IMG/VR virus record: IMGVR_UViG_3300020186_000063 | Coordinates: 1-32,853 of that record | Direction: 5' to 3' (one strand) | Source: a virus | Length of the DNA stretch: 32,853 nucleotides | Part shown: piece by piece, positions 3,700 through 31,313 of the stretch | Layout: each line of letters starts with the position of its first letter | How positions within the stretch are numbered: position 1 is the stretch's first letter | Made by a program: the position numbers and the translations under genes | The notes under the pieces: generated by a model | What the model saw: only the letters and a program-made list of their open reading frames with translations | What the model was told of the DNA's origin: nothing | Database searches by the model: none

Positions 3700-3728
3700 T
3701 TGTAATTTAACAATTAGGGGATTATAAT
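3700..3728 (+). promoter_or_regulatory. Sigma70-like promoter, leader A
   Basis: TTGTAA (3700-3705), a 17-nt spacer and a perfect TATAAT (3723-3728) lie just after the large gene's stop. The predicted start (about 3735) is only some 20 nt ahead of a terminator hairpin. Bases 3729-3760 match the leader at 31265-31296 at 25 of 32 positions. Confidence 0.75.
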
Positions 3729-3754
3729 GTATCTAGTCAGATCTTACTGATCAC

Positions 3755-3778
3755 GGCACCAGGTAGGTGTCTTTTTTT
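3755..3778 (+). terminator. Intrinsic terminator abutting the next start codon, leader A
   Basis: GGCACC (3755-3760) pairs with GGTGTC (3766-3771, one G-U) around AGGTA and is followed by seven T. The ATG at 3779 follows the last T with no gap. The only Shine-Dalgarno-like bases (AGGTG) are in the 3' arm of the hairpin. Confidence 0.75.
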
Positions 3779-3898
3779 ATGGCTAGAAAAGCAAAAGCTC
3801 CAGTCAGAAAAATATTTAAGCTAAAATCCCTCTCAGTACGAAGGGGGGTAGTGAAGATTCCGCGTCTTCCACGAATAAAAAGCAAGCGGATAAAATGA
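3779..3898 (+). CDS. Small, extremely basic protein (39 aa)
   Basis: The ATG directly follows the terminator U-tract, and the gene ends in an ATGA overlap with the next gene at 3895. The product starts MARKAKAPVRK and has 16 Lys/Arg and no acidic residues in 39, with Pro and Val spaced through it. Such a composition suits nucleic-acid binding or a minor virion peptide, but no family is recognised. There is no free ribosome-binding site: AGGTG inside the hairpin could serve only if the hairpin opens. The tight overlap downstream and start placement matching the other leader elements support it being a real gene. Confidence 0.6.
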   Translation: MARKAKAPVRKIFKLKSLSVRRGVVKIPRLPRIKSKRIK

Positions 3899-5189: not shown

Positions 5190-6049
5190 ACATACAATGG
5201 GTTCCAAGCCCAAACTTCGATAAGAATAGACTGCCTATTACGCACATCTTCATTCATTGGATTGTAGGAAATCTTGCTGCTGCTGATGCACAGTTCAAGA
5301 AAACTACCCCAGGAACCTCAGCCCATTATGGGATAGAGGATGACACAATACACCAATACGTTAAAGATGATGCAGTTGCTTATCATGCAGGGGTATATTC
5401 GTGGAATCAAAAAAGCATTGGCATTGAACATTCAGCAGCACCAGATAGATTAGCCTCTGAGAAGACCTACAAGACATCGGGACAGCTTATTGCCGAGATA
5501 TGTACCAAATACCACATTCCGTTAAATCGTGAGCATATCAAGGGTCATAAAGAGGTACGCAACACACAATGCCCCGGCACGATGGATATTGATAAGCTCA
5601 TTCGGGTAGCTAAGACGTTTATGGGAGTCGATCCGCAGATTGAGCTGGATAAACTTCGCACAGAGCGAGATCGTAATTGGACCTACTTTGCCGGACTTTG
5701 CGACATCATGCAAGTACAGCCTAACTACGATATTGCAGCGGGAGAGTTAAAGAAGCTTGTTAGCTTTCAGGATGTATTGTTTCATAAGGAATCGCAACTG
5801 AAAGATGCTGATAAGAAAATCTCAGATCTTCAGATAGACCTAGTGAAGATAACAAAGGAACACGATAAGACAGTAGCCGAGAATACAAGCCTTGTCGAAG
5901 AAGCTAGGAGACAGAGTGACCGTATCAGCAAGCAGGAAGGGCAGATCAACACAGTCTCAGAGCAGCTAGATCAGTTGAAAAAACAATGCAGTATGACTGT
6001 TCTGACAGGTTATAAGAAACTAATCTATGACCTGTTAATAAAGGGGTGA
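5186..6049 (+). CDS. N-acetylmuramoyl-L-alanine amidase endolysin (Amidase_2)
   Basis: The start at 5186 is chosen over an upstream in-frame ATG (5129) because it forms ATGA with the previous stop and removes 19 non-homologous residues, giving 287 aa. Residues about 17-140 are a T7-lysozyme/PGRP-type Amidase_2 domain that cleaves the MurNAc-L-Ala bond of peptidoglycan. The zinc ligands are visible as H24 (FIHWI), H121 (GHKE) and C129 (QCPG). SAHYGI (45-50), YHAG (66-69) and GIEH (79-82) are conserved landmarks. Residues about 205-270 form a long coiled coil, less usual for an endolysin, perhaps for oligomerisation or wall attachment. It sits in a lysis cassette. Confidence 0.92.
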   Translation: MNIQWVPSPNFDKNRLPITHIFIHWIVGNLAAADAQFKKTTPGTSAHYGIEDDTIHQYVKDDAVAYHAGVYSWNQKSIGIEHSAAPDRLASEKTYKTSGQLIAEICTKYHIPLNREHIKGHKEVRNTQCPGTMDIDKLIRVAKTFMGVDPQIELDKLRTERDRNWTYFAGLCDIMQVQPNYDIAAGELKKLVSFQDVLFHKESQLKDADKKISDLQIDLVKITKEHDKTVAENTSLVEEARRQSDRISKQEGQINTVSEQLDQLKKQCSMTVLTGYKKLIYDLLIKG

Positions 6050-7047: not shown

Positions 7048-7076
7048 TTGCTTCTTTATCATAGAGAATGTAATAT
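7048..7076 (+). promoter_or_regulatory. Candidate promoter, leader B
   Basis: TTGCTT (7048-7053), a 17-nt spacer and TAATAT (7071-7076). It is weaker than the other leaders but in the same architecture: a hairpin with a U-tract begins 9 nt after the -10 box. Confidence 0.45.
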
Positions 7077-7129: not shown

Positions 7130-7166
7130 CCCCGATGTTTACCACAAGTAGGCGTCGGGGTTTTTT
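7130..7166 (+). terminator. Intrinsic terminator 2, leader B
   Basis: CCCCGATG (7130-7137) pairs with CGTCGGGG (7153-7160) over 8 bp, followed by six T and immediately by ATGG at 7167. That ATG opens a four-codon frame (MERR, stop at 7179) whose AGG AGG codons form the ribosome-binding site of the gene at 7183. Confidence 0.75.
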
Positions 7167-7182
7167 ATGGAAAGGAGGTAAT

Positions 7183-7422
7183 ATGTTGCCATTTGTAAGT
7201 GTTGCATTAAGAGTTATAGACGAATTGCATATCATGGACAAAAAAGGGTCGGGAATGATTATGCGATTTGCCAAATTATATTCTCCTGAGAAGATGGGAG
7301 AAATTATGAAAGAAGCAAAGAAGCTTTATTGGTGGGAGAATAATCCAGTCGCAGCGTTTATGGTTTCTATTAAGGCAGTAAATACCAAGGAGAAAGAGCA
7401 TGGACAATACTGGTTGGGTTAA
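7183..7422 (+). CDS. Hypothetical protein at the start of the replication block (79 aa)
   Basis: The start at 7183 is preferred because AAAGGAGGTAAT precedes it. The longer frame from 7135 would run through the terminator hairpin. The protein (MLPFVSVALRVIDEL...) is amphipathic and Lys-rich, with a WW pair near the middle and a probable helix-rich fold. It overlaps the replication-protein gene by 23 nt, whose ribosome-binding site AAGGAG lies inside this gene. No family is recognised. It is probably an early gene co-transcribed with replication functions. Confidence 0.6.
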   Translation: MLPFVSVALRVIDELHIMDKKGSGMIMRFAKLYSPEKMGEIMKEAKKLYWWENNPVAAFMVSIKAVNTKEKEHGQYWLG

Positions 7423-8126: not shown

Positions 8127-8348
8127 ATGAATAAGACTACCTTAGAACACTTACAGCACCTTCGGCAAGACATACAACAAATAGAAGATAGGCTGGCACT
8201 ACTTCGTGTGGCCTGGGTAAAGGCATCTCCCGGACAAAAGAGGTATATAGTATCTGTGGCGAAGGTTTCAAAAGAAGAGTTGGCTAGGTTGAAGGTAAAG
8301 CTGGATAAAAACGCTGCGCTTGACAAGCAACTAACAGTCCGTGTATAA
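8127..8348 (+). CDS. Small coiled-coil protein (73 aa)
   Basis: It starts 2 nt after the previous stop with no visible Shine-Dalgarno sequence, so it probably depends on translational coupling. Residues 1-28 and 48-68 are helical with heptad-like Leu/Ile spacing (LEHLQHLRQDIQQIEDRL). Its last codons overlap the -10 box of the next promoter. It resembles the small helical accessory proteins found beside phage replication genes. No function is assigned. Confidence 0.55.
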   Translation: MNKTTLEHLQHLRQDIQQIEDRLALLRVAWVKASPGQKRYIVSVAKVSKEELARLKVKLDKNAALDKQLTVRV

Positions 8349-8349
8349 T
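8320..8349 (+). promoter_or_regulatory. Consensus sigma70 promoter with leaderless start
   Basis: Perfect TTGACA (8320-8325), an 18-nt spacer and perfect TATAAT (8344-8349). The next ATG (8357) lies 8 nt past the -10 box, at the expected transcription start, so the mRNA should be leaderless or nearly so. Confidence 0.85.
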
Positions 8350-11242: not shown

Positions 11243-11313
11243 GGTGTATTTTAAATGTAATTATGTTTTTTGTTATTCTTTTTAGCTTGGCTGTAGTTTG
11301 GGTATTGTTATGA
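11239..11313 (+). CDS. Hydrophobic micro-protein (24 aa)
   Basis: The frame (MRCILNVIMFFVILFSLAVV...) is one continuous membrane helix with a basic N-terminus. It is linked to both neighbours by ATGA overlaps, which is the main support for translation. It could be a toxin-like or modulator peptide, or a coupling ORF. Confidence 0.45.
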   Translation: MRCILNVIMFFVILFSLAVVWVLL

Positions 11314-11831
11314 AAAAACTAACACTTAAATACTACTTCCATATTCACCATGGAATACTGGTAGAGGCATTGACTGAACCTTTAAAAAATAGGATTAAAT
11401 ACATTAAGGAGAATAAACCAAAGGATGAGATTGAGTTAAGGCTAAAACTTATCAAACCTGTCAAGGGTAAGTTACCTAGTGAGTTTATTGAAGCAGACCA
11501 AACATGGGATAAAGCATACCAAGCACGGGATAAAGCATACCAAGCAAGGGGTAAAGCACACCAAACATGGGATAAAGCATACCAAGCATGGGATAAAGCA
11601 TACCAAGCAAGGGGTAAAGCAAACCAAGCATTCATTAAAGCAGACCAAGCAAGGGGTAAAGCAAACCAAGCATGGGGTAAAGCAAACCAAGCAGCGGATA
11701 AAGCAGACCAAGCATGGGATAAAGCACGAGAAGATAACATGCCAGCTCTTGAGAAGTTACATAAAAAAGAATGTGGATGTGGGTGGAACGGAGAAACTAT
11801 CTTTACTGAAGAGAATGGGTTGGATAAATAA
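11310..11831 (+). CDS. Ala/Gln/Lys heptad-repeat protein with Cys pair (173 aa)
   Basis: The start at 11310 forms ATGA with the previous stop. Residues 1-60 are globular and basic (MKKLTLKYYFHIHHGIL...). Residues 62-138 are eleven consecutive heptads of the form A-x-Q-A-x-x-K (for example AYQARDK, ANQAWGK), predicting a long, soluble amphipathic helix or coiled coil. The C-terminus has CGCGWNGET, a possible metal site. The 21-nt units are nearly identical at DNA level, so the array is likely recombinogenic and length-variable. The neighbour at 11833 has related Ala/Trp/Tyr-rich helix. No function is assigned. Confidence 0.7.
   Translation: MKKLTLKYYFHIHHGILVEALTEPLKNRIKYIKENKPKDEIELRLKLIKPVKGKLPSEFIEADQTWDKAYQARDKAYQARGKAHQTWDKAYQAWDKAYQARGKANQAFIKADQARGKANQAWGKANQAADKADQAWDKAREDNMPALEKLHKKECGCGWNGETIFTEENGLDK
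11493..11723 (+). repeat. Tandem 21-nt repeat, eleven units
   Basis: Units of the type GATAAAGCATACCAAGCA plus a variable codon repeat eleven times in phase with the gene's codons. Because the unit is a multiple of three, the other frames are also free of stops and produce spurious ORFs on both strands. Confidence 0.92.
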
Positions 11832-11989: not shown

Positions 11990-12253
11990 ATGAAAAATTA
12001 CTATAAAAAGGAAAAAATAAAATTTATGGCTACAATTGGATGGAATGGTGGAACTGTCGAGAAGGCTCTTAATGCAGTGATTACAGATCAAGGCTTTCTA
12101 AAAAAACGTAAAGGATATAAAACTTTTGGTGAGATGGTTGATGTACTTTGGAAAATAAATAAACAAAATAGAAAGATGGGATTTACTTCGGAATATACAG
12201 TTATTTTACCATTAAAGGGAACAAAACCAATTTATAAAAAGACACTTAACTAA
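11990..12253 (+). CDS. Hypothetical basic protein (87 aa)
   Basis: It starts one base after the previous stop; AAGGAGAGTAAATAAT upstream may serve as a ribosome-binding site. The protein begins MKNYYKKEKIKF and contains ATIGWNGGTVEKAL and EYTVILPLKGTKP, suggesting a small alpha/beta fold. Its stop codon is the first three bases of the 22-nt junction repeat. No family is recognised. Confidence 0.55.
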   Translation: MKNYYKKEKIKFMATIGWNGGTVEKALNAVITDQGFLKKRKGYKTFGEMVDVLWKINKQNRKMGFTSEYTVILPLKGTKPIYKKTLN

Positions 12254-12272
12254 ACCTTTACTTATATGAAAA
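12251..12272 (+). repeat. 22-nt junction repeat, copy 1 of 6
   Basis: Sequence TAAACCTTTACTTATATG followed by AAAA. Its first TAA is the stop of the upstream gene and its ATG (12266) starts the methyltransferase gene. It lacks any Shine-Dalgarno bases. Identical copies begin at 12867, 14382, 15901, 16284 and 16458. Confidence 0.95.
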
Positions 12273-12865
12273 CTGATTCAACCAAAATAATATTGGACTT
12301 ATGTGGTGGTACTGGCGCATGGTCAAAACCATATAAAGATGCTGGCTATGATGTGAGACTAATTACGTTACCGGATAATGACGTTAGAACTTATGAGCCA
12401 CCTGAAAATGTATACGGGATTTTAGCAGCTCCGCCTTGCACTATGTTTTCGTTAGCGAGAACAAGAGCTAAAAAGCCAAGAGATTTTAATGAGGGAATGG
12501 AAACTGTAGAAGTATGTTTACAGATTATATGGAAATGTAGAAAACAAAACAAGCTAGCCTTCTGGGCGTTAGAAAATCCAATGGGATATTTAAGACAATT
12601 TTTAGGTAAACCACCATTTCATTTTAACCCCTGGGAATTTGGAGATGCTTACACTAAAGGGACTGATATTTGGGGATACTTCAACTTCCCTATTAAAAAG
12701 TTTACAAATATCGACCAGGTAATGACTGAAGACCAAAAACTCAAGTGTTCAATCAATAATCGTAAACTTCCAAGTATCTCAATGATAACAGGAAGCAAGC
12801 AACAGACAGCTAGGGCAATTACCCCACAAGGTTTTGCACAAGCATTTTATAAAGCTAATACTTAA
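12266..12865 (+). CDS. C5-cytosine DNA methyltransferase-like protein (199 aa)
   Basis: The family transfers a methyl group from S-adenosylmethionine to cytosine C5. Motif I is LDLCGGTGAWS (residues 10-20). Motif IV is APPCTMFS with the catalytic-type C58. Motif VI is ALENPMG (ENP at 103-105). The end, TPQGFAQAFYKAN, resembles motif X. At 199 aa it is far shorter than typical Dcm-type enzymes and has little room for a target-recognition domain, as in many compact phage versions. It may protect phage DNA from restriction. It starts in the 22-nt junction repeat without a Shine-Dalgarno site. Confidence 0.8.
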   Translation: MKTDSTKIILDLCGGTGAWSKPYKDAGYDVRLITLPDNDVRTYEPPENVYGILAAPPCTMFSLARTRAKKPRDFNEGMETVEVCLQIIWKCRKQNKLAFWALENPMGYLRQFLGKPPFHFNPWEFGDAYTKGTDIWGYFNFPIKKFTNIDQVMTEDQKLKCSINNRKLPSISMITGSKQQTARAITPQGFAQAFYKANT

Positions 12866-12866
12866 C

Positions 12867-12888
12867 TAAACCTTTACTTATATGAAAA
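12867..12888 (+). repeat. 22-nt junction repeat, copy 2 of 6
   Basis: Exact copy whose ATG (12882) starts the next gene. Here the upstream stop (12863-12865) lies just outside the repeat, in an extended match CTTAAC shared with the copy at 16284. Confidence 0.95.
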
Positions 12889-13016
12889 AACTAACTAAAG
12901 AAGAACAAGCATTTGATGAACAGTTTGATCCTATGAAAGCAATAGAGCAATTGGTAGACGAAGCAAAGAGGCTTAAAGAGAAGTACTCAGACAAGGAGAA
13001 AGGACAAGATGAATAA
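12882..13016 (+). CDS. MKKLTKEEQ-start small acidic protein (44 aa)
   Basis: The start codon is that of junction repeat copy 2. The first nine residues are the shared MKKLTKEEQ leader. The rest is helical and charged (AFDEQFDPMKAIEQL...), ending in SDKEKGQDE. The last codons GAT GAA TAA overlap the ATG AAT AA of the next gene, a junction repeated elsewhere in this island. Function unknown. Confidence 0.5.
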   Translation: MKKLTKEEQAFDEQFDPMKAIEQLVDEAKRLKEKYSDKEKGQDE

Positions 13017-13122
13017 CAACGGAACACCATATACTGATGAAGAATGGAAAGCGTGGTACGCAAATGAAAGCAGTAGCGAAAGATTTGAAAGAGAACAAGA
13101 AAGAAAGGAGCAAGATGAATAA
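13009..13122 (+). CDS. Small charged protein (37 aa)
   Basis: It overlaps the previous gene by 8 nt at GATGAATAAC. The sequence MNNNGTPYTDEEWKAWYAN is followed by an Arg/Glu-rich helix ending QERKEQDE. It ends in the same overlapping junction with the next gene, whose ribosome-binding site AAAGGAG lies inside this frame. Function unknown. Confidence 0.45.
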   Translation: MNNNGTPYTDEEWKAWYANESSSERFEREQERKEQDE

Positions 13123-13288
13123 CTATATAAGAAAAACATATTCAGAGTTAGTAGCGTTACGTCGATTGAAAGAGATTGAGAAAAAAAATGGAGGCTTGAT
13201 CAATGGTAACTTTTCTTTTGTGGCACATGAAAATAAAATTAAAGTGAAGCGGTTACGTGAGCTTTACCAGGAGGAGAGTACGGCATGA
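13115..13288 (+). CDS. Small basic protein (57 aa)
   Basis: The start at 13115 is chosen for AAAGGAG at 4 nt spacing and the GATGAATAAC overlap; a longer frame from 13037 lacks support. The product (MNNYIRKTYSELVALRRL...) is basic with a central KKNGGLINGNFSFVAHENKIKV that may form a hairpin, then KRLRELYQEE. It ends in ATGA overlap with the next gene. No family is recognised. Confidence 0.5.
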   Translation: MNNYIRKTYSELVALRRLKEIEKKNGGLINGNFSFVAHENKIKVKRLRELYQEESTA

Positions 13289-13596
13289 ATAACTTAATAG
13301 CTGAGAGTATCAAGTGCTCAGTGAATTTTAGCAATAAGCCTATATGTAAAAGCAATTATCCTTGTGGTTGTCATTTTGGAGAGACTATTCACATGGATGG
13401 CTTTTGTGCTTGTGACGTTGATAAGTTTATCAAGCAAAAACTCCAAGCCATAGCAGAAAAAACGAGGGAGGATACAAAAAAGGAAATACTAAAAGATATA
13501 GCGACAGCATATCACGGTACAGATGATAGTTCTGAGGGTGCAACAGTGTTATTTATAAAGATTAGGGATAAGTTATCAGACAAGGAGAGTAAATGA
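13285..13596 (+). CDS. Cys-rich protein with MNNLIAESIK start, mosaic paralogue A (103 aa)
   Basis: Residues 11-45 hold seven cysteines and nearby His (CKSNYPCGCHFGETIH, then GFCACDVD), a probable zinc-binding module. Three blocks, MNNLIAESIK at the start, AIAEKTREDT in the middle and KLSDKESK at the end, are also found in the gene at 14082, while the segments between them differ. This is a paralogous pair with an exchanged N-terminal domain. The gene overlaps its neighbours by ATGA on both sides. Function unknown. Confidence 0.6.
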   Translation: MNNLIAESIKCSVNFSNKPICKSNYPCGCHFGETIHMDGFCACDVDKFIKQKLQAIAEKTREDTKKEILKDIATAYHGTDDSSEGATVLFIKIRDKLSDKESK

Positions 13597-13955
13597 TCCA
13601 CCAAACAACAATCAAATTTTATAAAGCACCCAAAATAGGGGATTACCTAGATATAATGCTTGTTAAGTGTGAACTGGGTAAGTCATTTAACGGATATTTA
13701 GAAAAAGGACACATTGTTTGGGAGGATATTAAAGAGGGTGCGGAGTGGAGAGACTACACGCCATTTATGGTTATTCCACGTATGTTCCCTATCCAAGAAC
13801 TTATTGATGCACTAACAGACAAAGCAGTTTTGCCAACCACTATACAGGTAGAAACAATCGCTGAACTTAGCGCCACCAAATACCATCTAGAAGATATGAG
13901 AAAGCTAGTATTTAGAGAGCAGGAATCATACGAGAAGAAAGGCCAAGATGAATAA
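13593..13955 (+). CDS. Hypothetical protein (120 aa)
   Basis: The start forms ATGA with the previous stop. The N-terminal 65 residues look like a beta-rich domain (IKFYKAPKIGDYLDIMLVKC, then EWRDYTPFMVIP). The remainder is helical and ends EKKGQDE, the same tail type as the genes at 12882 and 13009, overlapping the next start at GATGAATAAC. No family is recognised. Confidence 0.55.
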   Translation: MIHQTTIKFYKAPKIGDYLDIMLVKCELGKSFNGYLEKGHIVWEDIKEGAEWRDYTPFMVIPRMFPIQELIDALTDKAVLPTTIQVETIAELSATKYHLEDMRKLVFREQESYEKKGQDE

Positions 13956-14082
13956 CTTTATAAGCCCAGCAGAGGCAAAGAAAATGGGTATAAACATAAA
14001 GTTTAGGAGAATTAAAAGGCTTGGCAGACCAGCAAAAGTATATGGAAAAAGACAAAGAGGGTGGGTAGAAAGGCCATTGTGA
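13948..14082 (+). CDS. Small Arg/Lys-rich protein (44 aa)
   Basis: It opens in the GATGAATAAC overlap with AAAGG upstream. The peptide MNNFISPAEAKKMGINIKF continues with a dense basic stretch (RRIKRLGRPAKVYGKRQRG). SPAEAKKMGI reads like the start of a small DNA-binding helix pair. It joins the next gene by TGATG. It may be a nucleic-acid-binding micro-protein. Confidence 0.5.
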   Translation: MNNFISPAEAKKMGINIKFRRIKRLGRPAKVYGKRQRGWVERPL

Positions 14083-14384
14083 TGAATAACTTAATAGCTG
14101 AGAGTATCAAGGATCTTGAGTTCATCCTAACTGAGTGGGAGGGGGATACCAACGCTCTACTAGGTGCCGTAAGAGTAAACGCTAGATTGGACAGAATAAC
14201 CCCCATCCTCACAGCCATAGCAGAAAAGACGAGGGAGGACACGATTATTGAGGTGAGGAAAACAATAGCACGAAGTCTAGGGTATCTTGAGAACAGTGAT
14301 CTTGATCCAAGCCCAGAAAGAGTAATTACAGAGAGTGAGTTGTTTGAGATATTTTATAAGTTATCAGACAAGGAGAGTAAATAA
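14082..14384 (+). CDS. MNNLIAESIK-start protein, mosaic paralogue B (100 aa)
   Basis: It overlaps the previous stop by one base (TGATG). It shares MNNLIAESIK, AIAEKTREDT and KLSDKESK with the gene at 13285, but its residues 11-46 (DLEFILTEWEGDTNALL...) carry no cysteines. Everything is helical and acidic. Its TAA stop is the first triplet of junction repeat copy 3. Function unknown; the pair shows domain swapping around conserved ends. Confidence 0.55.
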   Translation: MNNLIAESIKDLEFILTEWEGDTNALLGAVRVNARLDRITPILTAIAEKTREDTIIEVRKTIARSLGYLENSDLDPSPERVITESELFEIFYKLSDKESK

Positions 14385-14403
14385 ACCTTTACTTATATGA
14401 AAA
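14382..14403 (+). repeat. 22-nt junction repeat, copy 3 of 6
   Basis: Exact copy. TAA at 14382 is the stop of the upstream gene and ATG at 14397 starts the YopX gene. Confidence 0.95.
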
Positions 14404-14837
14404 GAGAAATTAAATTCAGAGCGTGGGTAAAAAAAGAAAATAGTATGGTTGATATAACCTGTATTGATTGGACTAAACAAGAGAGTCAACCAAATGGGTG
14501 GTGTGCTTGTTCTTGGGAGGATGGATTTAATGAAAGTGTAGATACCCAAGAGAAAGATTGTGTTTTTCCTTTAGATCAAGTTGAACTTATGCAATTTACA
14601 GGCTTGCTTGATAAAGACGGAAAAGAGATTTACGAAAATGACTACTTGGAAATACCAGAAGTAAGTGATAATTCAAAAACTTGGTGTGTGTTCTGGGGTA
14701 GTGGTAAATATATCTTGCAAAATATCTCAACTGGTGATATACTTGATTGTAATGAAACAAACACAAACAAAAAAGAAGGCGGTGGCAACCGATACGAAAA
14801 TCCTAGAGAACACAAGGCGGTGGCGTCTGACTTATAA
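14397..14837 (+). CDS. YopX family protein with altered C-terminus (146 aa)
   Basis: REIKFRAWVKKENSM at the start and LMQFTGLLDKDGKEIYEND (residues 64-82) are the signature of the YopX family, widespread phage proteins of unknown function. Family members commonly end in a motif like IGNIYENPELL. Here the tail reads GGNRYENPRE (129-138) and then diverges. The ordinary ending is found instead at the end of the overlapping HNH gene (15269-15306). The 3' end (14752-14837) overlaps that gene in another frame. It starts in junction repeat copy 3. Confidence 0.8.
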   Translation: MKREIKFRAWVKKENSMVDITCIDWTKQESQPNGWCACSWEDGFNESVDTQEKDCVFPLDQVELMQFTGLLDKDGKEIYENDYLEIPEVSDNSKTWCVFWGSGKYILQNISTGDILDCNETNTNKKEGGGNRYENPREHKAVASDL

Positions 14838-15309
14838 AGGACTAACAGCAAATCTATATGCAAAGATACGAGAACGCTCAAAAAGAAATAATAGACAGAA
14901 CGATGAATTTACTCTTGCAGAATTTAGAGCTTTCCTCGAAGCCACTGATATACGTAGACTCTTTCGGAGATGGGAGAGGGGTAATTGGAGCAATAAGGGA
15001 AGACCATCCGTGGACAGAATTGATTGCTTACTGGGGTACACCTTTGACAATATGCAAGTTATTACAGCTCAAGAAAATCGCAAGAAGGGTGATGAAGAAA
15101 AAATTATTCTATGGGGTAAGCCTATACATCAGGTTTCTCTTTCAGGAAACGTGGTTGCGAAGTACCCTAACATTAAAAAAGCTATGGAAATGACAGGAAT
15201 AAATCGAAATAACATATCTTCAGTACTTCACGGTAAAAGAAAAACAGCGGGAGGATTTAAGTGGGAAGTCATTGGAAACATTTATGAAAATCCTGAGTTA
15301 TTAGCCTAG
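14752..15309 (+). CDS. HNH endonuclease with NUMOD-like domain and YopX-like tail (185 aa)
   Basis: The start at 14752 lies inside the YopX gene. An upstream in-frame start at 14665 is rejected as anti-sense-like sequence. Residues about 25-115 are a phage HNH domain: LTYKGLTANLYAKIRERSK, FTLAEFRAFL, then PSVDRIDCLLGYTFDNMQVI and TAQENRKKG. Residues about 126-171 resemble NUMOD1 (VSLSGNVVAKYPNIKKAM, NISSVLHGKRKTAGGFKW), a DNA-binding module of homing endonucleases. The last residues, EVIGNIYENPELLA, are a canonical YopX ending. This suggests an endonuclease gene that invaded the end of yopX and captured its tail. Confidence 0.78.
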   Translation: MKQTQTKKKAVATDTKILENTRRWRLTYKGLTANLYAKIRERSKRNNRQNDEFTLAEFRAFLEATDIRRLFRRWERGNWSNKGRPSVDRIDCLLGYTFDNMQVITAQENRKKGDEEKIILWGKPIHQVSLSGNVVAKYPNIKKAMEMTGINRNNISSVLHGKRKTAGGFKWEVIGNIYENPELLA

Positions 15310-15323
15310 GAGAAGTAACATAT

Positions 15324-15461
15324 ATGAAAAGAAAAGAATTTATTGAAATATTTGGAGAATTACCAGAGGATATGCTGGGAAATGATTGGGAGAATGATAT
15401 CCAGGAGTTAGAAGTATTGAAGGAAATAACCTATAAATTTAAAGAGAAGGCGAAGGAGTAA
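15324..15461 (+). CDS. Small acidic protein (45 aa)
   Basis: AGGAGAAG lies about 10 nt before the ATG. The product (MKRKEFIEIFGELPEDML...) is acidic and helical, ending in a Lys-rich helix. Its last codons AAG GAG form the ribosome-binding site of the next gene, 2 nt downstream. No family is recognised. Confidence 0.5.
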   Translation: MKRKEFIEIFGELPEDMLGNDWENDIQELEVLKEITYKFKEKAKE

Positions 15462-15463
15462 AT

Positions 15464-15655
15464 ATGAAAAAACAATACTTTATAACAAGCAGGTTAAATA
15501 AAAAGACAGGAATGTACGACTTCTTCTTTAATGGCAAGAATGTAACTTGCTTATGGATGGATTTCTTTAGCGGTCTGAGTATGGAGCAGGAACTAAGTTG
15601 TACCAAGTTATTTATTAAAAAGTATGGCAGAAAACTATATGAAAAAACTAACTAA
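15464..15655 (+). CDS. Small basic aromatic-rich protein (63 aa)
   Basis: AAGGAG precedes the ATG at 5 nt. The sequence MKKQYFITSRLNKKTGMYDF, with further FFF, W and KKYGRK elements, suggests a small beta/alpha fold. It has two Cys and no membrane helix. Its 3' end overlaps an ATGAAAAAACTAACTAAAG segment (15639) that could provide an alternative start for the Acb2-like gene. No family is recognised. Confidence 0.5.
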   Translation: MKKQYFITSRLNKKTGMYDFFFNGKNVTCLWMDFFSGLSMEQELSCTKLFIKKYGRKLYEKTN

Positions 15656-15674
15656 AGAAGGAGGTGAAATAAAT

Positions 15675-15863
15675 ATGGCAACTTTACACTATGTTGAACC
15701 AACAGACGAGCAAAAAGCAACAATGCAAACATTTAGAAATAAATATGAAGCATTATTTAATGAACTAAAAGCATTACCAGCTAGTCGGGGAATGTCTTTA
15801 GCTTTAACTAAACTAGAAGAAAGTGCAATGTGGCTTAACAAAGCTATAACTAAAAACGATTAG
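15675..15863 (+). CDS. acb2: Acb2-like cyclic-nucleotide sponge, candidate anti-CBASS/anti-Thoeris protein (62 aa)
   Basis: GGAGGTGAAATAAAT directly upstream fixes the start at 15675; in-frame ATGs at 15639 and 15624 would add 12 or 17 residues without a ribosome-binding site. The C-terminal half, SRGMSLALTKLEESAMW and then LNKAI (38-58), closely fits the Acb2/Tad1 hairpin-domain consensus as I recall it (SREKSLALTKLEE, then MWANKAI), and the N-terminal helix has the expected amphipathic pattern. Acb2 proteins assemble as hexamers and sequester cyclic di-/trinucleotides, and in some cases gcADPR, blocking CBASS and Thoeris signalling. Ligand binding here is inferred from family resemblance. 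Confidence 0.78.
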   Translation: MATLHYVEPTDEQKATMQTFRNKYEALFNELKALPASRGMSLALTKLEESAMWLNKAITKND

Positions 15864-15871
15864 TTGATTGC

Positions 15872-15891
15872 CACTTGCCTTCGGGTGAGTG
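15872..15891 (+). other. UUCG-loop hairpin after the Acb2-like gene
   Basis: CACTTGCC (15872-15879) and GGTGAGTG (15884-15891) pair over 8 bp with two G-U pairs around a TTCG tetraloop. No U-tract follows, so it is more likely an mRNA 3'-end protection or processing structure than a terminator. Confidence 0.6.
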
Positions 15892-15900
15892 AGAGTTAAT

Positions 15901-15922
15901 TAAACCTTTACTTATATGAAAA
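15901..15922 (+). repeat. 22-nt junction repeat, copy 4 of 6
   Basis: Exact copy; ATG at 15916 starts the next gene. This is the only copy preceded by a short non-coding spacer rather than directly by a stop codon. Confidence 0.95.
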
Positions 15923-16110
15923 CAAGATGGTTCAACAAAATACAAATTGACAATAAAAACTTACCTTATAGATGGCAAGAGAACCTTGTTTCAAATGGAA
16001 AGATTGGCGGAGTAATGCTTGTCTTTGTTGAAGGATTTACAGAGACAGAGATTAATGGCAAAGTTAAACAAATTAAAGATCTCTGTAAAATACTGAAAGG
16101 AGATAAATAA
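15916..16110 (+). CDS. Hypothetical protein (64 aa)
   Basis: It starts in junction repeat copy 4. The protein begins MKTRWFNKIQIDNKNLPYRW and shows two beta-like stretches (GGVMLVFVEGF) and a Lys-rich C-terminal helix (KQIKDLCKILKGDK). The last codons carry AAAGGAGAT, a ribosome-binding site for the next gene. No family is recognised. Confidence 0.55.
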   Translation: MKTRWFNKIQIDNKNLPYRWQENLVSNGKIGGVMLVFVEGFTETEINGKVKQIKDLCKILKGDK

Positions 16111-16112
16111 AA

Positions 16113-16286
16113 ATGTATATTAATAATCCAGTCAGTAATTGTTGTCAAGCACAGGTCAGGATTATTCCTGTTTATAAAGCTGATGGCACAATAGCAACCG
16201 ATATAGCTTTAGAAGAAGGAGAAAATCTTAATAGATGCGTTAAGTGTGGCGAGCCTTGCGATATTGTACAGCTAATACTTAACTAA
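16113..16286 (+). CDS. Zinc-ribbon protein (57 aa)
   Basis: Cysteine pairs at the two ends, NCCQAQV (C10-C11) and RCVKCGEPCD (C42, C45, C49), frame a short beta segment. This is the usual layout of small phage zinc ribbons. AAAGGAG upstream supports the start. The stop TAA is part of junction repeat copy 5. It probably binds nucleic acid or a host protein, but no target can be inferred. Confidence 0.6.
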   Translation: MYINNPVSNCCQAQVRIIPVYKADGTIATDIALEEGENLNRCVKCGEPCDIVQLILN

Positions 16287-16305
16287 ACCTTTACTTATAT
16301 GAAAA
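16284..16305 (+). repeat. 22-nt junction repeat, copy 5 of 6
   Basis: Exact copy; its TAA stops the zinc-ribbon gene and its ATG (16299) starts the next. The flanks match copy 2 on both sides, including the MKKLTKEEQ codons. Confidence 0.95.
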
Positions 16306-16460
16306 AACTAACTAAAGAAGAACAAAAAGAAAAGGCTAAATTAAAAGGAAAATGTACTAATTGTCTTAAGCCGATGGAAGATGAGAGTAATGAAAACTGG
16401 CAGATTTATTGTCCACGTAAAAAGTGCGTAGAGGCATTTATCAAATCCTTTTCAGACTAA
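16299..16460 (+). CDS. MKKLTKEEQ-start zinc-finger protein (53 aa)
   Basis: The first nine residues are the shared leader, followed by a Lys-rich stretch and then C19-x2-C22 and C38-x4-C43 (CTNCLKPM, YCPRKKC), a zinc-finger-like arrangement. The shared leader on unrelated bodies (also at 11833 and 12882) implies recombination within the first codons. The stop is in junction repeat copy 6. Function unknown. Confidence 0.55.
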   Translation: MKKLTKEEQKEKAKLKGKCTNCLKPMEDESNENWQIYCPRKKCVEAFIKSFSD

Positions 16461-16479
16461 ACCTTTACTTATATGAAAA
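16458..16479 (+). repeat. 22-nt junction repeat, copy 6 of 6
   Basis: Exact copy at the right edge of the island. Its ATG (16473) does not start the terminase gene but opens an 11-codon frame overlapping it. Confidence 0.95.
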
Positions 16480-16508
16480 CTACGAAGTACTATGACAAAG
16501 AAATATAA
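16473..16508 (+). CDS. Possible 11-residue leader peptide
   Basis: The ATG of junction repeat copy 6 opens MKTTKYYDKEI and stops at 16508, overlapping the terminase small subunit start (16492) in a different frame. It may only couple translation into terS, or be an accident of the repeat's insertion. Confidence 0.25.
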   Translation: MKTTKYYDKEI

Positions 16509-16884
16509 CTACATCAAAAAGACAGGAAGACCAACGAAATATATACCTGAGATTATATTTCCAAAGGTAGAAGAATACATAACCTCATGTGGTAGAGAAA
16601 ATACTGCACTTCCAACAGTTGAAGGACTTGCAATTTCGCTTGACGTAACAACTGAAACGATTTATCAATGGACGAAAGAACACCTTGAGTTTTCTGATAC
16701 TATTAAAAGAATAGCTAATAGACAGAAAGAGCAATTGATGAATGATGGGATGTACGGAGGCAAAGAAGTAAATGCGGCAATGGCTATATTCTTACTTAAG
16801 GCAAATCACGGGCTTAAAGATAATGAAGGACAGGTGAATATTCAGGTAAATGTAACACCGATTGTTGATCTTGAAGCGAAATGA
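16492..16884 (+). CDS. terS: Terminase small subunit, HTH DNA-recognition protein (130 aa)
   Basis: TerS recognises the packaging site and regulates the motor. GRPTKYIPEI (12-21) is a common opening of this family. LPTVEGLAISLDVTTETIYQWTKEH (from about residue 40) is the helix-turn-helix. MAIFLLKANHGLKDNEG is the typical oligomerisation/tail region. Length is normal. The start at 16492 has no clear Shine-Dalgarno site and lies inside the 11-codon frame set by junction repeat copy 6. It is followed by TerL with an ATGA overlap. Confidence 0.85.
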   Translation: MTKKYNYIKKTGRPTKYIPEIIFPKVEEYITSCGRENTALPTVEGLAISLDVTTETIYQWTKEHLEFSDTIKRIANRQKEQLMNDGMYGGKEVNAAMAIFLLKANHGLKDNEGQVNIQVNVTPIVDLEAK

Positions 16885-18077
16885 TCAAAACAACTGCCAC
16901 GAAGAAGATATTTGAACTGAGGAGGCGTATTAGAGTTATTTCCGGAGGATCTTCTGCTTCAAAAACAATATCCGTCCTGATTTGGTGTATCAAAAGAGCG
17001 CAGTTTCCTCCAGACAAGACCCCTGAGCTAATTTCAATCGTATCAGAGACGTTTCCACATCTAAGGCGGGGATCAATGAGGGATTTTCTTCTCATCATGG
17101 AGGAGCATAAAGTATTCAAAGACGCACAATGGAACAAGACTGATTGTATTTATACATTTGAATCAGGATCAAAGATTGAGTTCTTTTCGGCTGATCAACC
17201 TGGGAAAGTACGCGGTCCAAGGCGTGACATCTTGTTTATTAACGAGTGCAACAATATTTCCTATGAAACATATACCCAACTTGAAATCAGAACGAAGAAA
17301 ATTATCTGGATGGATTTTAATCCTGTTCAAGAGTTTTGGGTGTATACAGAGCTTATCCCAAATATGGATCATGACTTTTTAACGCTAACGTACAAGGACA
17401 ATGAGGCACTTGATCCGGCTATTGTTGAGGCTATTGAATCACGAAAGGGGAACAAGAACTGGTGGAAGGTTTACGGTTTAGGAGAGTTGGGGATGACTGA
17501 GGGCGTAGTGTATCCTCATTTTCTTCCACTTGATGATATTCCTCCCGATGCAAGGCTTGTAAGACGTGGAATGGATTTTGGATATACAGCTGATCCTACA
17601 GCAGTTCTTGATATTTATGAGTGGAACAATGCGTATGTTTGGGATGAGGTGCTCTATCGTAAGGGACTCAGCAACAGAGACATTGCGGATGTGCTTATGA
17701 ACTTACCAAAGGCATTAGTAGTTGCAGACTCAGCCGAGCCTAAATCAATTGATGAGATAAAGAATTACGGAATAAATATTATCCCCTCTCAGAAGGGGCC
17801 AGGGAGCGTGCTACAGGGCATACAGTATGTTCAGGATCAGAAGATATATGTTACCAAGGGAAGCACAAATATATGGCGTGAGCAGCGTAATTACTTATGG
17901 TTAATTGATAAAGACGGCAAGATCATTAATGAACCTTCTCCCTTCTTAAATCATTTGATGGACGCGGGGAGATATGGAATGGAAAGCTTGCGACCAATTG
18001 ATCAAAAGGATCTTGAGCTCTACGGTGATAACTATCAGAAAGTAAACGAAGGGCTAGCCAACAAGTGGAGACTATGA
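16881..18077 (+). CDS. terL: Terminase large subunit, PBSX-like (398 aa)
   Basis: TerL is the packaging ATPase and headful nuclease. The ATPase domain has a Walker A variant GGSSASKT (22-29), Walker B ILFINE ending at E122, and the coupling motif MDFNP (144-148). The RNase H-like nuclease domain has D232 (RGMDFGYT), D283 (VVADS) and D361 (NHLMDAGRY), the three metal-binding acids. At 398 aa it is on the short side but all motifs are present, so it looks complete and active. It is preceded and followed by ATGA overlaps. Confidence 0.95.
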   Translation: MIKTTATKKIFELRRRIRVISGGSSASKTISVLIWCIKRAQFPPDKTPELISIVSETFPHLRRGSMRDFLLIMEEHKVFKDAQWNKTDCIYTFESGSKIEFFSADQPGKVRGPRRDILFINECNNISYETYTQLEIRTKKIIWMDFNPVQEFWVYTELIPNMDHDFLTLTYKDNEALDPAIVEAIESRKGNKNWWKVYGLGELGMTEGVVYPHFLPLDDIPPDARLVRRGMDFGYTADPTAVLDIYEWNNAYVWDEVLYRKGLSNRDIADVLMNLPKALVVADSAEPKSIDEIKNYGINIIPSQKGPGSVLQGIQYVQDQKIYVTKGSTNIWREQRNYLWLIDKDGKIINEPSPFLNHLMDAGRYGMESLRPIDQKDLELYGDNYQKVNEGLANKWRL

Positions 18078-18397
18078 ACAAGTCACTGCCTACAATAGAG
18101 CAAGATCCATATAAGATCGAAAGGGAGAATAATGATAAGAAAGTCTCGGTTCTTTTTGCCTCACTCTTTCCTGAGACTGCTGTGCCTTATGAGTATATCT
18201 TTGATGTAGTGAGGCTTTTAGAAAGCACTAAGGTTAACGCCAGAATCCTTCCTGAGGTGATAAGGGGAATATACAATCTCAATAGTCATAATAGGAAAGG
18301 GCAGGTAATTGTTCATGTTTCACGTGAGCTTACAAATATTCAGATAAGGGAGAATAGTGAAACAATGAGTACCTTATCGGAAGATGAGGAAAAGTAA
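18074..18397 (+). CDS. Hypothetical protein between terminase and portal (107 aa)
   Basis: The start at 18074 forms ATGA with the TerL stop, so an in-frame GTG at 18065 is not needed. The protein starts MNKSLPTIEQDPYKIEREN and has a helical middle (YEYIFDVVRLLESTKVNARI, LPEVIRGIYNL) and an acidic end. It is probably packaging- or head-related by location only. Promoter leader D follows its stop. Confidence 0.55.
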   Translation: MNKSLPTIEQDPYKIERENNDKKVSVLFASLFPETAVPYEYIFDVVRLLESTKVNARILPEVIRGIYNLNSHNRKGQVIVHVSRELTNIQIRENSETMSTLSEDEEK

Positions 18398-18426
18398 TTG
18401 ATATTTAGATAAAAAGAGTATAAAAT
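18398..18426 (+). promoter_or_regulatory. Candidate promoter, leader D
   Basis: TTGATA (18398-18403), a 17-nt spacer and TAAAAT (18421-18426). An overlapping TATAAA at 15-nt spacing is an alternative. A GAAA-loop terminator starts about 25 nt downstream. Confidence 0.6.
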
Positions 18427-18452
18427 GTAGGAAATCGTCAAGATTGTATCTA

Positions 18453-18480
18453 AGACGGGTCGAAAGACTCGTCTTTTTTT
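18453..18480 (+). terminator. Strong GAAA-loop terminator, leader D
   Basis: AGACGGGTC (18453-18461) pairs with GACTCGTCT (18466-18474) over 9 bp (one G-U) around GAAA, followed by seven T. The portal ATG lies 9 nt further (18490) with no Shine-Dalgarno bases between. Bases upstream (GTC at 18438, AGAT/ATCT) can form a competing hairpin that borrows GAC from the terminator's left arm. Confidence 0.85.
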
Positions 18481-18489
18481 GTTGATAAA

Positions 18490-20550
18490 ATGGCAAAGAA
18501 GCAACCTATTGTTGGAAAAGGAACGCCTGATGAGGTTGAGGCGTTTACTGAGGTATCCACTCACTACGAACTCTCCCGACAGGACTTGGAGCAAAGAATC
18601 TATCGCAAGAATGGATTTGATGACGCGGACAAGATGTTTGCATCGCATATAGACGAGAACTCATGGCCGTATAGGTCACTGATGTTTGATCCCCGCCCTT
18701 ACACAGTAATCCTCGAGAAATCAGCACGACTCATCGGAAGTAAGCCTAAAGGCCGCCTTGTGCCGCGTGAGGGTGGAGACTCTCTCGGAGCGTACATCAA
18801 TAACGAGTTGCTTGATTATCAATGGGAAGACAATGTGAGGTTAGGCCAGTCAATGATATCAAAGTGGATCATGATGGATCAAAATGTACGAAAGTACGGA
18901 TCTTCATTTGCTTTAGATGATTGGCATTATGAATGTTACACGAAGGATGGAAAGAAGGAGGTATTTTATGATGGACCCAATATGAAGGTACTGAATAATA
19001 GACTTGTTTTCGCTAATCCATCATATGAGTATATTAACAAGTGGTTTGCATATGGGGAATTTTTGACCATAAAGGATCTGGAAACTGTGAATGATGCCGG
19101 TAGAACTAAACCTCAATACAAGAATCTTGATCTTCTACGGGATTCAGTTGATGACTCAACAAAGACAAATGGAGATACGCCAAACATTCAGAGTAAAAAT
19201 AAGCAAATGAAAGGCTTACAGGACTATATGGGGAGAGATGAATACAACAAACCTCTTCTGATTATTCATGAGAGAAGGCCAGATAGATGGATCTCGGTTG
19301 CCATAAAGCATGGTGTCGTGGTACGAGATATCCCCAATCCATACAAGGATCGTGATCTACACGTCAATCACTTGAAATACTATCCTCTCCCTGATGATTT
19401 GTACGGAGTAAATGAGCTGGAGCCTGTAGCGAAGCAAATCAGAGCCATAAATGCTCATTTGTCAGCCTACTCAGACACTATTGCCCTTGCGCTGCGCCCT
19501 CCTATTCACGTTAATCCGATGAACGTACGTCTTCATACCCTCTCATGGGACCCTGAGGCAAAGTGGTTGATGAATACACCTAACGTAGACGTTCAGTTGA
19601 TGAGAATTGACACATCAGTTACAGCTAACTTTCAATCTATCTATCAGGTACTCGTCGGAAGTCTTATGAATGCACTCGGAGAACAATCACAGCAGATGAG
19701 TAGTTCTAATCCCTTCCAACAGGCGGGGAATGTAACAGCAACAGAAATACGCGATACCGCCACGACGAGAAATGTACGCGACAACATGAATAAGGTCTTT
19801 CTTGCAGAGGCACTAAAAAAACAGATCATGTTGTGGCATTCAATGAATCAACAGTTTATGTTTACTGCTAAAACGGATAAGTTAAAGATTATAAGAATTG
19901 CAGGACGTGACGCAGTTGAGTTCTTCACGAGACAGGGATTGTCAGATATCAGACCAACGCAGGAGGATGCAGAGCAAATTGCTACGGGTCAAATGGATTC
20001 TGATTCGATTGCTCCTGGGCCACGCTTTGCAGTTAATGTGGGAGATGACGAAATGGGTATGCCTATGGAAGTACCGAAGTATATGCCTGATGAATCAGGT
20101 GGTGGCGGTAATCTCATTATAGAGCCTGGTGATCTTCAAGGTAACTATAACTATATCCCTGATATTGAGTCAATGGCTGCGCCTTCTGATCAGGACATCG
20201 AGCAGAAGCTTATGGCACTGCTAACAACAATGACAAATCCTGCAATTGTACAGGGGCTGATGCAGGAGGGAGTGAGGCCAAAGTATAAGGAATTACTCAC
20301 AAAAGCAATTGAAGCAACAAACGTAGTCAAAGACGCTGATGCGTACTTTGAAGACATCAAGAACACTCAAATGGGAGGAGGTATTAATGAAGGTCAAATT
20401 AACGGTGGAGGAGTCCCTGCGGCAGCAGGAGGGGTTTCGCCTCAAGGAGATGTGTCAATCGGAGGGATGGAGCCTAGTGCTGTTCCCGCTACTGGAATCG
20501 CAAATCAAATCAGCAGTGGTGGACCCGCGCAAGTTCCAGTCGGAGTCTGA
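18490..20550 (+). CDS. Portal protein (686 aa)
   Basis: The portal forms the dodecameric vertex through which DNA is packaged. Long helical/beta wing and clip regions are recognisable: RNVRDNMNKVFLAEALKKQI and TATEIRDTATT in the C-terminal stem/crown section, an N-terminal FDPRPYTVILEKSARLIG typical of large portals, and position between terminase and scaffold. The last 80 residues are Gly/Pro/Gln-rich and flexible. The final 164 nt overlap the next gene in another frame. The ATG follows leader D's terminator without a visible ribosome-binding site. Confidence 0.85.
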   Translation: MAKKQPIVGKGTPDEVEAFTEVSTHYELSRQDLEQRIYRKNGFDDADKMFASHIDENSWPYRSLMFDPRPYTVILEKSARLIGSKPKGRLVPREGGDSLGAYINNELLDYQWEDNVRLGQSMISKWIMMDQNVRKYGSSFALDDWHYECYTKDGKKEVFYDGPNMKVLNNRLVFANPSYEYINKWFAYGEFLTIKDLETVNDAGRTKPQYKNLDLLRDSVDDSTKTNGDTPNIQSKNKQMKGLQDYMGRDEYNKPLLIIHERRPDRWISVAIKHGVVVRDIPNPYKDRDLHVNHLKYYPLPDDLYGVNELEPVAKQIRAINAHLSAYSDTIALALRPPIHVNPMNVRLHTLSWDPEAKWLMNTPNVDVQLMRIDTSVTANFQSIYQVLVGSLMNALGEQSQQMSSSNPFQQAGNVTATEIRDTATTRNVRDNMNKVFLAEALKKQIMLWHSMNQQFMFTAKTDKLKIIRIAGRDAVEFFTRQGLSDIRPTQEDAEQIATGQMDSDSIAPGPRFAVNVGDDEMGMPMEVPKYMPDESGGGGNLIIEPGDLQGNYNYIPDIESMAAPSDQDIEQKLMALLTTMTNPAIVQGLMQEGVRPKYKELLTKAIEATNVVKDADAYFEDIKNTQMGGGINEGQINGGGVPAAAGGVSPQGDVSIGGMEPSAVPATGIANQISSGGPAQVPVGV

Positions 20551-22348: not shown

Positions 22349-23251
22349 ATGTTAACTTCATTTTACGATACAAGTCGAAGAGAAGATCTTTTGGATATTG
22401 TTGCGGATTTGACTCCTGATGACACGCCTTTAGCGACGATGCTTAAAACGTCTACAGCTAAAGACACGATCCATCAGTGGCTCGAGGATTATGTTACTCC
22501 TCCATCATCTGTAACTTTTGCCGCTGAAGGTGCTGCTGCTACATATACAGCGCTCACACAGCCAAACAGAGTAACAAATATTACCGCTACTCTAACTGAA
22601 ACATTCCGTGTTTCAGGTACTGAAATGGCAGTCACGCCAGCAGGTGGAAATCCAATGGATTACCAATCGGGAAAAGCCCTTAGAGTTTGGAAAATGAAAC
22701 AGGAGTATGCCATCGTCAATGGTGCACTTACTTCTGGTGTTTCCGGAACTGCTGCAAGCATGGCTGGTTTGATTAACGTCATTACCACGCTTTACACTGC
22801 ACGCAATTCAGGCACATCACTTTCTGAGACTGAGTTCCAAGATATGCATCAGCATTCATGGGATAAGGGAGGCACAGATAATTCGTTTGATTTAGTCTTA
22901 GTACCGTTTGGTCTTAAGAGAAAAATCGACGGATTTACAGCAGGTGCGACAAAGTATGTTGACCAAAGCGACAAGAGATTGACGCAGCCAGTCGCCATAT
23001 ACGAAACATCAGCTGGTGTAGCCAGAATCATGCAGCACAGGTATGTTGCTAGTGCAGCAGCGAGTCCTGGTCCTCGATTCCTAGGTATCAAAGAGGACAA
23101 ATTCCGAATCGCTTACCTCCGTAAGCCATTTAAGGAAATGCTCGCCAAAGATGGAGATCGTGAGAACGGTCAAATCGTTGGGGAGTTTACTCTTGAATAT
23201 CTCGGTGAAAAGTCGAGTGTTAACCGAAGTGGTTACGCAGTAAACGGCTAA
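22349..23251 (+). CDS. Major capsid protein, SU10/DUF5309-like HK97 fold (300 aa)
   Basis: The protein starts MLTSFYDTSRREDLLDIVAD and shows the pattern of this capsid family: LTPDDTPLATMLKTSTAKDT, HQWLEDYVTPP, a beta-hinge region with RVTNITATLTETFRVSGTE, then the spine helix LRVWKMKQEYAIVNG, and a C-terminal strand pair (EFTLEYLGEKS). These correspond to E-loop, spine helix and A-domain of an HK97 fold. About 300 aa without a delta domain agrees with a separate scaffold upstream. AAGAGGTG is the ribosome-binding site. Both sides carry strong hairpins. Confidence 0.88.
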   Translation: MLTSFYDTSRREDLLDIVADLTPDDTPLATMLKTSTAKDTIHQWLEDYVTPPSSVTFAAEGAAATYTALTQPNRVTNITATLTETFRVSGTEMAVTPAGGNPMDYQSGKALRVWKMKQEYAIVNGALTSGVSGTAASMAGLINVITTLYTARNSGTSLSETEFQDMHQHSWDKGGTDNSFDLVLVPFGLKRKIDGFTAGATKYVDQSDKRLTQPVAIYETSAGVARIMQHRYVASAAASPGPRFLGIKEDKFRIAYLRKPFKEMLAKDGDRENGQIVGEFTLEYLGEKSSVNRSGYAVNG

Positions 23252-23810: not shown

Positions 23811-23839
23811 TTGCAAGCGAAACAAATCCATGATATATT
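23811..23839 (+). promoter_or_regulatory. Candidate promoter, leader C
   Basis: TTGCAA (23811-23816), a 17-nt spacer and TATATT (23834-23839). Downstream, ACAG-ACTTA-CTGT (23853-23865) forms the same mini-hairpin type as leaders A and E, before a terminator. Confidence 0.6.
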
Positions 23840-23874
23840 GATTTAGTCTAGTACAGACTTACTGTCCTACGGCC

Positions 23875-23909
23875 AGACACCTTCAGCGATAGCTCGGGTG
23901 TCTTTTTTT
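23875..23909 (+). terminator. Intrinsic terminator abutting the next start codon, leader C
   Basis: AGACACC (23875-23881) pairs with GGTGTCT (23897-23903) over 7 bp, followed by seven T and directly by ATG at 23910. A small inner helix AGC/GCT can form in the loop. Confidence 0.8.
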
Positions 23910-30516: not shown

Positions 30517-31253
30517 TTTCAGTTATTACTCCATCAGTAAGAGATGAGATGCTTCCGATTATTGAGAAGTGCCTAAAGCGTCAGGACTTTGATGATTTTG
30601 AGTGGATTATAACTAGTCCAATTGAAATTGCCTCGGTTATGCCTACGCTACTTCTCAAAGATCCTCCAAAGCTTCCTGGTGACTTCTATACACTGTGCAA
30701 AGGCTGGAATCAAGCATATGCTCATGCAAAGGGTGAATTAATTGTTAATATTCAGGATGGCATTTGGTTTCCTCCTGATATCCTATCGAAGTTTTGGTTT
30801 CACTATCAGAATAAGCCTCGGGCGTTGCTCTCAGCGATAGGTCATCAATACGATAGCTTTGATGATCTCGGTGTACCGACAAACAAAATGTGGCATGATC
30901 CAAGGTCTAAATCAGACATATCGTTTGAAGAAGTTGCACCAAGTGAAATAGAGATGGTTCTTTGCTCTATACCTAGACAAGCGCTTATTGAATGTGGAGG
31001 AATCGATGAGGAATATGATACTTGCGCTGCGGTTTGTGAAAAGGAGATGTGCTGGCGGTTGAATGAACTAGGCTGGGATTTCTACATTGATCACACGATT
31101 GAGTATAAAGCTATCCACCATCCGAGGCTCAATGATGACTGGGAGAGAGTGTATCGTGAGAAATCTACTCCGTTATTCATAAAACACATGAAAGAACGTT
31201 CAGCAGGCACAAGAACGCTTAATGTTGACAATTTGTTGAAATACATTGCATGA
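30513..31253 (+). CDS. GT2-like glycosyltransferase (246 aa)
   Basis: The N-terminal MISVITPSVRDEMLPII, then FEWIITSP, GWNQAYAHAKGELIVNIQDGIWFPP (with QDG in place of DxD) and CEKEMCWRLNELGWDF (the acceptor ED motif) are those of GT2 enzymes. The start forms ATGA with its neighbour. The last gene of the glycan island, it is followed by the clearest promoter in the series, leader E. The missing canonical DxD makes catalytic competence less certain. Confidence 0.75.
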   Translation: MISVITPSVRDEMLPIIEKCLKRQDFDDFEWIITSPIEIASVMPTLLLKDPPKLPGDFYTLCKGWNQAYAHAKGELIVNIQDGIWFPPDILSKFWFHYQNKPRALLSAIGHQYDSFDDLGVPTNKMWHDPRSKSDISFEEVAPSEIEMVLCSIPRQALIECGGIDEEYDTCAAVCEKEMCWRLNELGWDFYIDHTIEYKAIHHPRLNDDWERVYREKSTPLFIKHMKERSAGTRTLNVDNLLKYIA

Positions 31254-31264
31254 GAGTGTATAAT
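31236..31264 (+). promoter_or_regulatory. Sigma70-like promoter, leader E
   Basis: TTGAAA (31236-31241), a 17-nt spacer and perfect TATAAT (31259-31264), overlapping the end of the last glycosyltransferase gene. The following 32 nt match leader A closely and with compensatory hairpin changes. Confidence 0.8.
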
Positions 31265-31290
31265 GGTTTTAGTCAAATCTTATTGATCAT

Positions 31291-31313
31291 GGCGCCTTAG
31301 AGGGCGTTTTTTT
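31291..31313 (+). terminator. Intrinsic terminator next to start codon, leader E
   Basis: GGCGCC (31291-31296) pairs with GGCGTT (31303-31308, two G-U) around TTAGAG and runs into seven T; one C separates the T-run from ATG at 31315. Confidence 0.7.

Follow-up and report, generated by a model that had tools for sequence, protein, structure and literature searches.

Every late module in a clade of uncultured phages appears, with a probability of roughly 55%, to open with a gate in which newly begun transcription meets a promoter-proximal terminator and has to be carried past it by antitermination. The clade is known from assembled metagenomic contigs and is represented here by virus record IMGVR_UViG_3300020186_000063, the whole of which (32,853 nt) is called the window. 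Its module boundaries carry recurring leaders composed of a promoter, a mini-hairpin (H1), an intrinsic terminator (hairpin H2 with a T-run) and a gene start. The anatomy of these leaders and their genome-wide use are seen directly, as are the conservation and covariation of H1 and a conserved sequence at the expected transcription start. Known cases of promoter-proximal termination coupled to antitermination concern single late promoters, as with lambda Q, or single early transcripts, as with put and N. If the reading is true, the gate governs how an entire phage genome is transcribed, and the leaders suggest a genome-wide switch that decides when late genes may be read. No description of this leader arrangement was found in open-licence papers.

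An earlier note on this DNA had claimed five leaders, each with a sigma70-like promoter of 17-nt spacing, a hairpin and a T-run, and all five are present on the + strand of the window. Promoters were scored against a simple sigma70 consensus. Leader 1 has a sigma70-like promoter, TTGTAA-17-TATAAT (3700–3728), a putative +1 at A3735 (AGTC) that runs into H1 (GTCAG-ATCTTA-CTGAT, 3736–3751), and a terminator (3755–3778) whose H2 (GGCACC-AGGTA-GGTGTC, 3755–3771) is followed by T7 abutting the ATG at 3779. The promoter of leader 3, TTGATA-17-TAAAAT (18398–18426), lies upstream of the portal gene; its putative +1 is A18433 (AATC), its H1 region (18433–18451 with the +1) holds AGAT-TGT-ATCT at 18441–18451 or, alternatively, AATC/GATT, and its terminator (18452–18480; H2 hairpin 18452–18475, then a T-run) precedes the portal ATG at 18490. 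Leader 4 combines a TG-extended promoter, TTGCAA-17-TATATT (23811–23839), a putative +1 at A23845 (AGTC) with H1 (TAGTA-CAGACT-TACTG, alternatively AGTCT/AGACT; 23845–23864), and a terminator (23875–23909; H2 hairpin 23875–23903) with T7 abutting the ATG at 23910. Leader 5 consists of TTGAAA-17-TATAAT (31236–31264), a putative +1 at A31271 (AGTC) with H1 (GTCAA-ATCTTA-TTGAT; 31271–31287), and a terminator (31291–31313; H2 hairpin 31291–31308) whose T-run ends 1 nt before the ATG at 31315. The weakest is leader 2, with a weak promoter (TTGCTT-17-TAATAT, 7048–7076; 3/6 and 4/6 matches), no clear H1 and 53 nt between the -10 box and the hairpin; its terminator is strong (13 bp; 7130–7166, hairpin 7130–7160, with T6), a Shine-Dalgarno (SD) sequence and the ATG at 7183 follow, and it fits the gate model poorly. 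Across the leader set of the clade the distance from -10 to terminator is 22–30 or 34–37 nt, from which terminated RNAs of ~45–60 nt are predicted.

The + strand carries all module genes of the window, and the leaders sit at module borders. The leader at 3700 borders the lysis module (endolysin, about 5195–6049), that at 7048 the early region, which encodes a DnaD-like helicase loader, a RusA-like resolvase and a DNA methyltransferase, and that at 18398 the portal-capsid module, with a head-tail adaptor/portal-like gene (18490–20550) and the major capsid gene (22349–23251). The window also encodes the small (16492–16884) and large (16881–18077) terminase subunits. The leaders at 23811 and 31236 border a glycosyltransferase/tail region and a further structural unit, respectively, both named by inspection. 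Modules are provisionally called early or late on their gene content and one promoter. This promoter, TTGACA-18-TATAAT (8320–8349, + strand; TTGACA at 8320, TATAAT at 8344), lies in the early region, is the only 12/12 match in the window and has no terminator downstream; relative G005 has a similar 11/12 promoter. As a candidate ungated promoter, it fits an early promoter that would feed a later switch.

Taken singly, promoter-like and terminator-like sites in the window hardly exceed chance, with 29 promoter-like sites against 39.4 expected and 34 against 35.8, and 19 terminator-like sites against 11.2 and 12 against 10.6. Such counts would be expected by chance or from the usual promoters and terminators of a phage, and they are the reason why the combination of the two elements was tested; it is the combination that is significant. 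A strong sigma70-like promoter lies 14–75 nt upstream of 36 of 47 strong coding-strand intrinsic terminators in eight records, against 10.4% expected for random positions (binomial p = 2e-26), and upstream of none of six terminators on the opposite strand of the same records. The set comprises sister G001, relatives G003–G006 and G008, and the distant members G012 and G015; the last two were found by a DNA pattern and are not independent, because they were chosen for holding a leader, whereas the six records reached via the capsid gene alone give 29/35. Annotated capsid relatives, which largely lack the arrangement, give 4/23 in the same test, and terminase relatives from bacterial genome records 7/50. 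A terminator of this type follows most top coding-strand promoters, the 12/12 promoter at 8344 being among the exceptions. The pattern TATAAT-N20-50-T6ATG had 10 matches in 20 virus records, several of which were chosen because they carry it, against 0 for a backwards control. T-runs before ATG with hairpins also occur elsewhere in IMG/VR, a point on the side of chance: in a collection-wide scan, 10 of the matches listed for the TATAAT pattern yielded a hairpin and an open reading frame against 9 for a scrambled control, a comparison that cannot measure enrichment. For the clade, chance is refuted by the pairing in the eight records, and the covariation of H1 and the conservation of leaders at orthologous genes also speak against it, which leaves this explanation highly improbable.

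Conservation extends well beyond the window. Three extra leaders (719, 3938 and 4817) occur in G001, a near-identical 41.1-kb sister record, in sequence absent from the window, and records of the clade hold three to eight leaders each. Orthologous leaders precede the portal gene, a ~584-aa gene and a 105–157-aa gene in several relatives, and the more distant terminase relatives L012, L013, L014, L026, L041, L054 and L064 have a leader before the portal. The morphogenesis module is common to the window, G012 and G015, mostly at 20–40% identity, with 62% for the G012 terminase match. The promoter, mini-hairpin, terminator and start that the earlier note saw recurring at module boundaries are conserved, with covariation, across a phage clade.

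Ordinary operon-end terminators are almost absent from the fetched records, where leader terminators are nearly the only strong ones and must therefore also end the preceding unit. This observation, together with the overlap that compact genomes favour, lends some weight to a shared insulator, whose terminator would mainly end the upstream unit, with the next promoter happening to precede it and expression relying on incomplete termination, without dedicated antitermination. Nearly all cases, nevertheless, have the order promoter-terminator-gene and not terminator-promoter-gene; insulation would not require the degree of conservation seen in H1 and the +1 sequence, and late structural genes need high expression. 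A plain insulator is unlikely.

H1 is a conserved, covarying RNA structure, with a stem of 4–7 bp located 0–6 nt upstream of the terminator. In a MAFFT alignment made from sequence alone it was the best of all scanned 5-bp registers, with 18 double-sided changes against 6.3 in shuffles and a covariation of 0.486 against 0.179, somewhat inflated because the register was selected on the alignment later scored; none of 500 shuffles reached either value. A shift of the register by one column lowered the score to 0.222 or 0.112. Independently, the last 26 nt ahead of the terminator form stems superior to those of dinucleotide shuffles (z = 4.8, 42 leaders), with control values of z = 0.0 further upstream, z = -2.3 downstream of the T-run and z = 1.35 for terminators of other phages. 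Six paralogous leaders of G015 retain H1 with different pairs between similar flanks (TTC...GC). In single leaders H1 is mostly not significant on its own (p 0.02–1.0), RNAalifold predicted no structure on alignment A3, probably because the terminators do not align, and Rfam gave no match at gathering score within the window. The putative transcript start is also conserved: RRYY occurs 6–8 nt after the -10 box, at the expected +1, in 22 of 30 leaders (6.9 in shuffles), and its 5' nucleotides pair inside the leader beyond shuffles (z = 4.0).

This pairing of the 5' nucleotides, and the structure at both predicted RNA ends, would suit a short RNA as the product, either as abundant ~45-nt RNAs with hairpins at both ends or as two hairpins that protect the mRNA 5' end. 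The terminator is mostly tied to the start of a gene, however, a U-tract would be superfluous for a 5' stabiliser, and the differences in H1 sequence from leader to leader within a genome argue against a common antisense target. Such a product is improbable.

In the gate reading, a host-type sigma70 promoter would start the RNA at RRYY, and the 5' end would fold into H1, with the intrinsic terminator H2 (and U6–8) placed just before the first gene. Unaided polymerase should stop after ~45–60 nt, given the assumed efficiency of termination so near the promoter, and the H2 of each leader would also end transcription arriving from the upstream unit. Polymerase would be modified as it crosses the leader, most likely through recognition of H1, and would then pass H2 and transcribe the unit; early products would come beforehand from an early promoter that no terminator follows. 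Among cis elements, H1 is the strongest candidate for the antitermination determinant. No early protein common to the leader-bearing genomes was found at phmmer level, and N-like proteins diverge fast; the opener would accordingly be a host factor, a small protein that has diverged or, on the model of HK022 put, the RNA itself. The lack of a shared early protein is compatible with put-like antitermination without a dedicated protein and is not proof of it. A bolder version, in which a 5'-terminal H1, alone or with a host factor, represents a new class of cis-acting RNA antiterminator that lets locally initiated polymerase pass the adjoining terminator at every late unit while upstream polymerase stops, is rather unlikely. 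The six to eight leaders of a genome, with H1 hairpins that differ but are equivalent in structure, amount to a natural mutant series, which makes RNA-determined antitermination directly testable in vitro. The antitermination or attenuation regulon first suggested for these leaders remains their best explanation, backed by conservation in the clade and by covariation.

Several known systems offer partial parallels. The lambda N-nut site consists of boxA and boxB, with a small RNA hairpin early in the transcript. The leaders share such an early hairpin; boxA occurs in none of 30 leaders and, unlike boxB, H1 has no conserved loop and abuts the terminator. In lambdoid Q antitermination (pR'-tR'), a terminator right after the late promoter gates the late genes (PMC6606751), and the clade leaders likewise have a terminator shortly downstream of the late promoter. 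Unlike the lambdoid system with its one late promoter, the clade has several leaders per record, the terminator is placed at ~+16 to +31, next to the first gene, and an RNA hairpin is conserved. The parallel with lambda Q drawn in the earlier note holds for the logic but not for two hallmarks: a sigma-pause element (-10-like, in the initial transcribed region) is found in 6 of 30 leaders against 8.1 in shuffles, and no conserved spacer motif that could be a Q binding element appears between -35 and -10 over 31 promoters, where a degenerate site is possible. The window proteins scanned (all but a few short ORFs) gave no PHROGs or Pfam match to a Q-family protein, although Q families are diverse. 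AlpA overcomes an intrinsic terminator that closely follows its promoter (PMC9371919), and bypass of a terminator so located is the likeness to AlpA and GafZ (PMC9371919, PMC11150451); the difference is that their promoter-embedded binding element is not seen here and no homologue was identified. A phage protein of the Q/AlpA/GafZ type, which binds promoter DNA and loads on sigma-paused polymerase, would be consistent with the same layout of promoter, terminator and late genes, and would pass local polymerase while upstream-derived polymerase stops. Given the lack of a pause element, a spacer motif and a common early protein, and a mechanism that has no part for the conserved H1 RNA, it is doubtful.

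The put RNA of HK022 is ~70 nt long, both of its stems act as the antiterminator, and it works on distant terminators (PMC9378689). Similarly, in the leaders a phage promoter is immediately followed by two stem-loops that form the start of the RNA, with the RNA as the candidate determinant; in contrast to put, the second of these stems, with its U-tract, is a terminator, H1 is short, and the overall geometry differs. Further hallmarks of put are its own sequence and fold and a contact with the beta' zinc-binding domain. The SAS/ESAS elements of cluster K mycobacteriophages, of which ESAS is formed by 17-bp imperfect repeats with a variable spacer, are likewise associated with gene starts, contain inverted repeats and recur at many genes of one genome; unlike the leaders, ESAS is not known to include a U-tract terminator (PMC3203893). 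An attenuator or riboswitch with a mutually exclusive antiterminator was rejected, as pairing between the upstream segment and the 5' arm of the terminator gave z = -1.6 over 30 leaders.

Some expectations about translation had to be revised. A T-run ending 0–1 nt before ATGG is literally present at four of the five leaders, but only three of these ATGs open genes (3779, 23910 and 31315); the ATG at 7167 opens a 4-codon frame, and the true gene start is 7183. The proposal that no SD site can exist between hairpin and ATG is wrong at 7048, where AAAGGAGG lies between the T-run and ATG 7183, and an SD after the T-run also occurs in leaders of G003, G004 and G008. The idea that the 3' arm of H2 doubles as a sequestered ribosome-binding site finds no support either: in relatives, most leaders have an arm that does not resemble an SD (...CCGTC, ...GTGTCCC, ...GAACGC), and the SD-like arms at 3765 and 31300 are not a general leader feature. 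Two similar candidate leader peptides, MYLVRSY* (ATG 3727) and MVLVKSY* (31263), were dropped; each ATG falls within the -10 box, ahead of +1, and most leaders have no such ATG.

Other features were observed beside the leaders. In another phage group (L182, L231, L240, L263 and L365), a promoter is followed by a strong terminator (ending in GTCAGCGGT or similar) and T7 directly 5' of ATGCCGC or similar, with no obvious H1. The gene that follows the large terminase in the window and precedes the portal leader encodes a ~108-aa protein (18071–18397) with no family match, of which G003–G006 keep a homologue (32–68% identity); its place directly 5' of a late leader recalls Q. A 21-bp tandem repeat (11449–11768) encodes a 7-residue repeat (DKAYQAR/GKANQAW) inside the ORF at 11310–11831 and is overlapped by a second long frame. 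The same 30-nt gene start (MNNLIAESIK) at 13285–13314 and 14082–14111 suggests gene duplication. Finally, AACCTTTACTTATATGAAAA is present in six exact copies within 12247–16490 (at 12253, 12869, 14384, 15903, 16286 and 16460; 0.02 expected), each leading directly, without an SD, into an ATG that in most cases begins a short early gene, and these copies resemble the start-associated sequences of cluster K mycobacteriophages.
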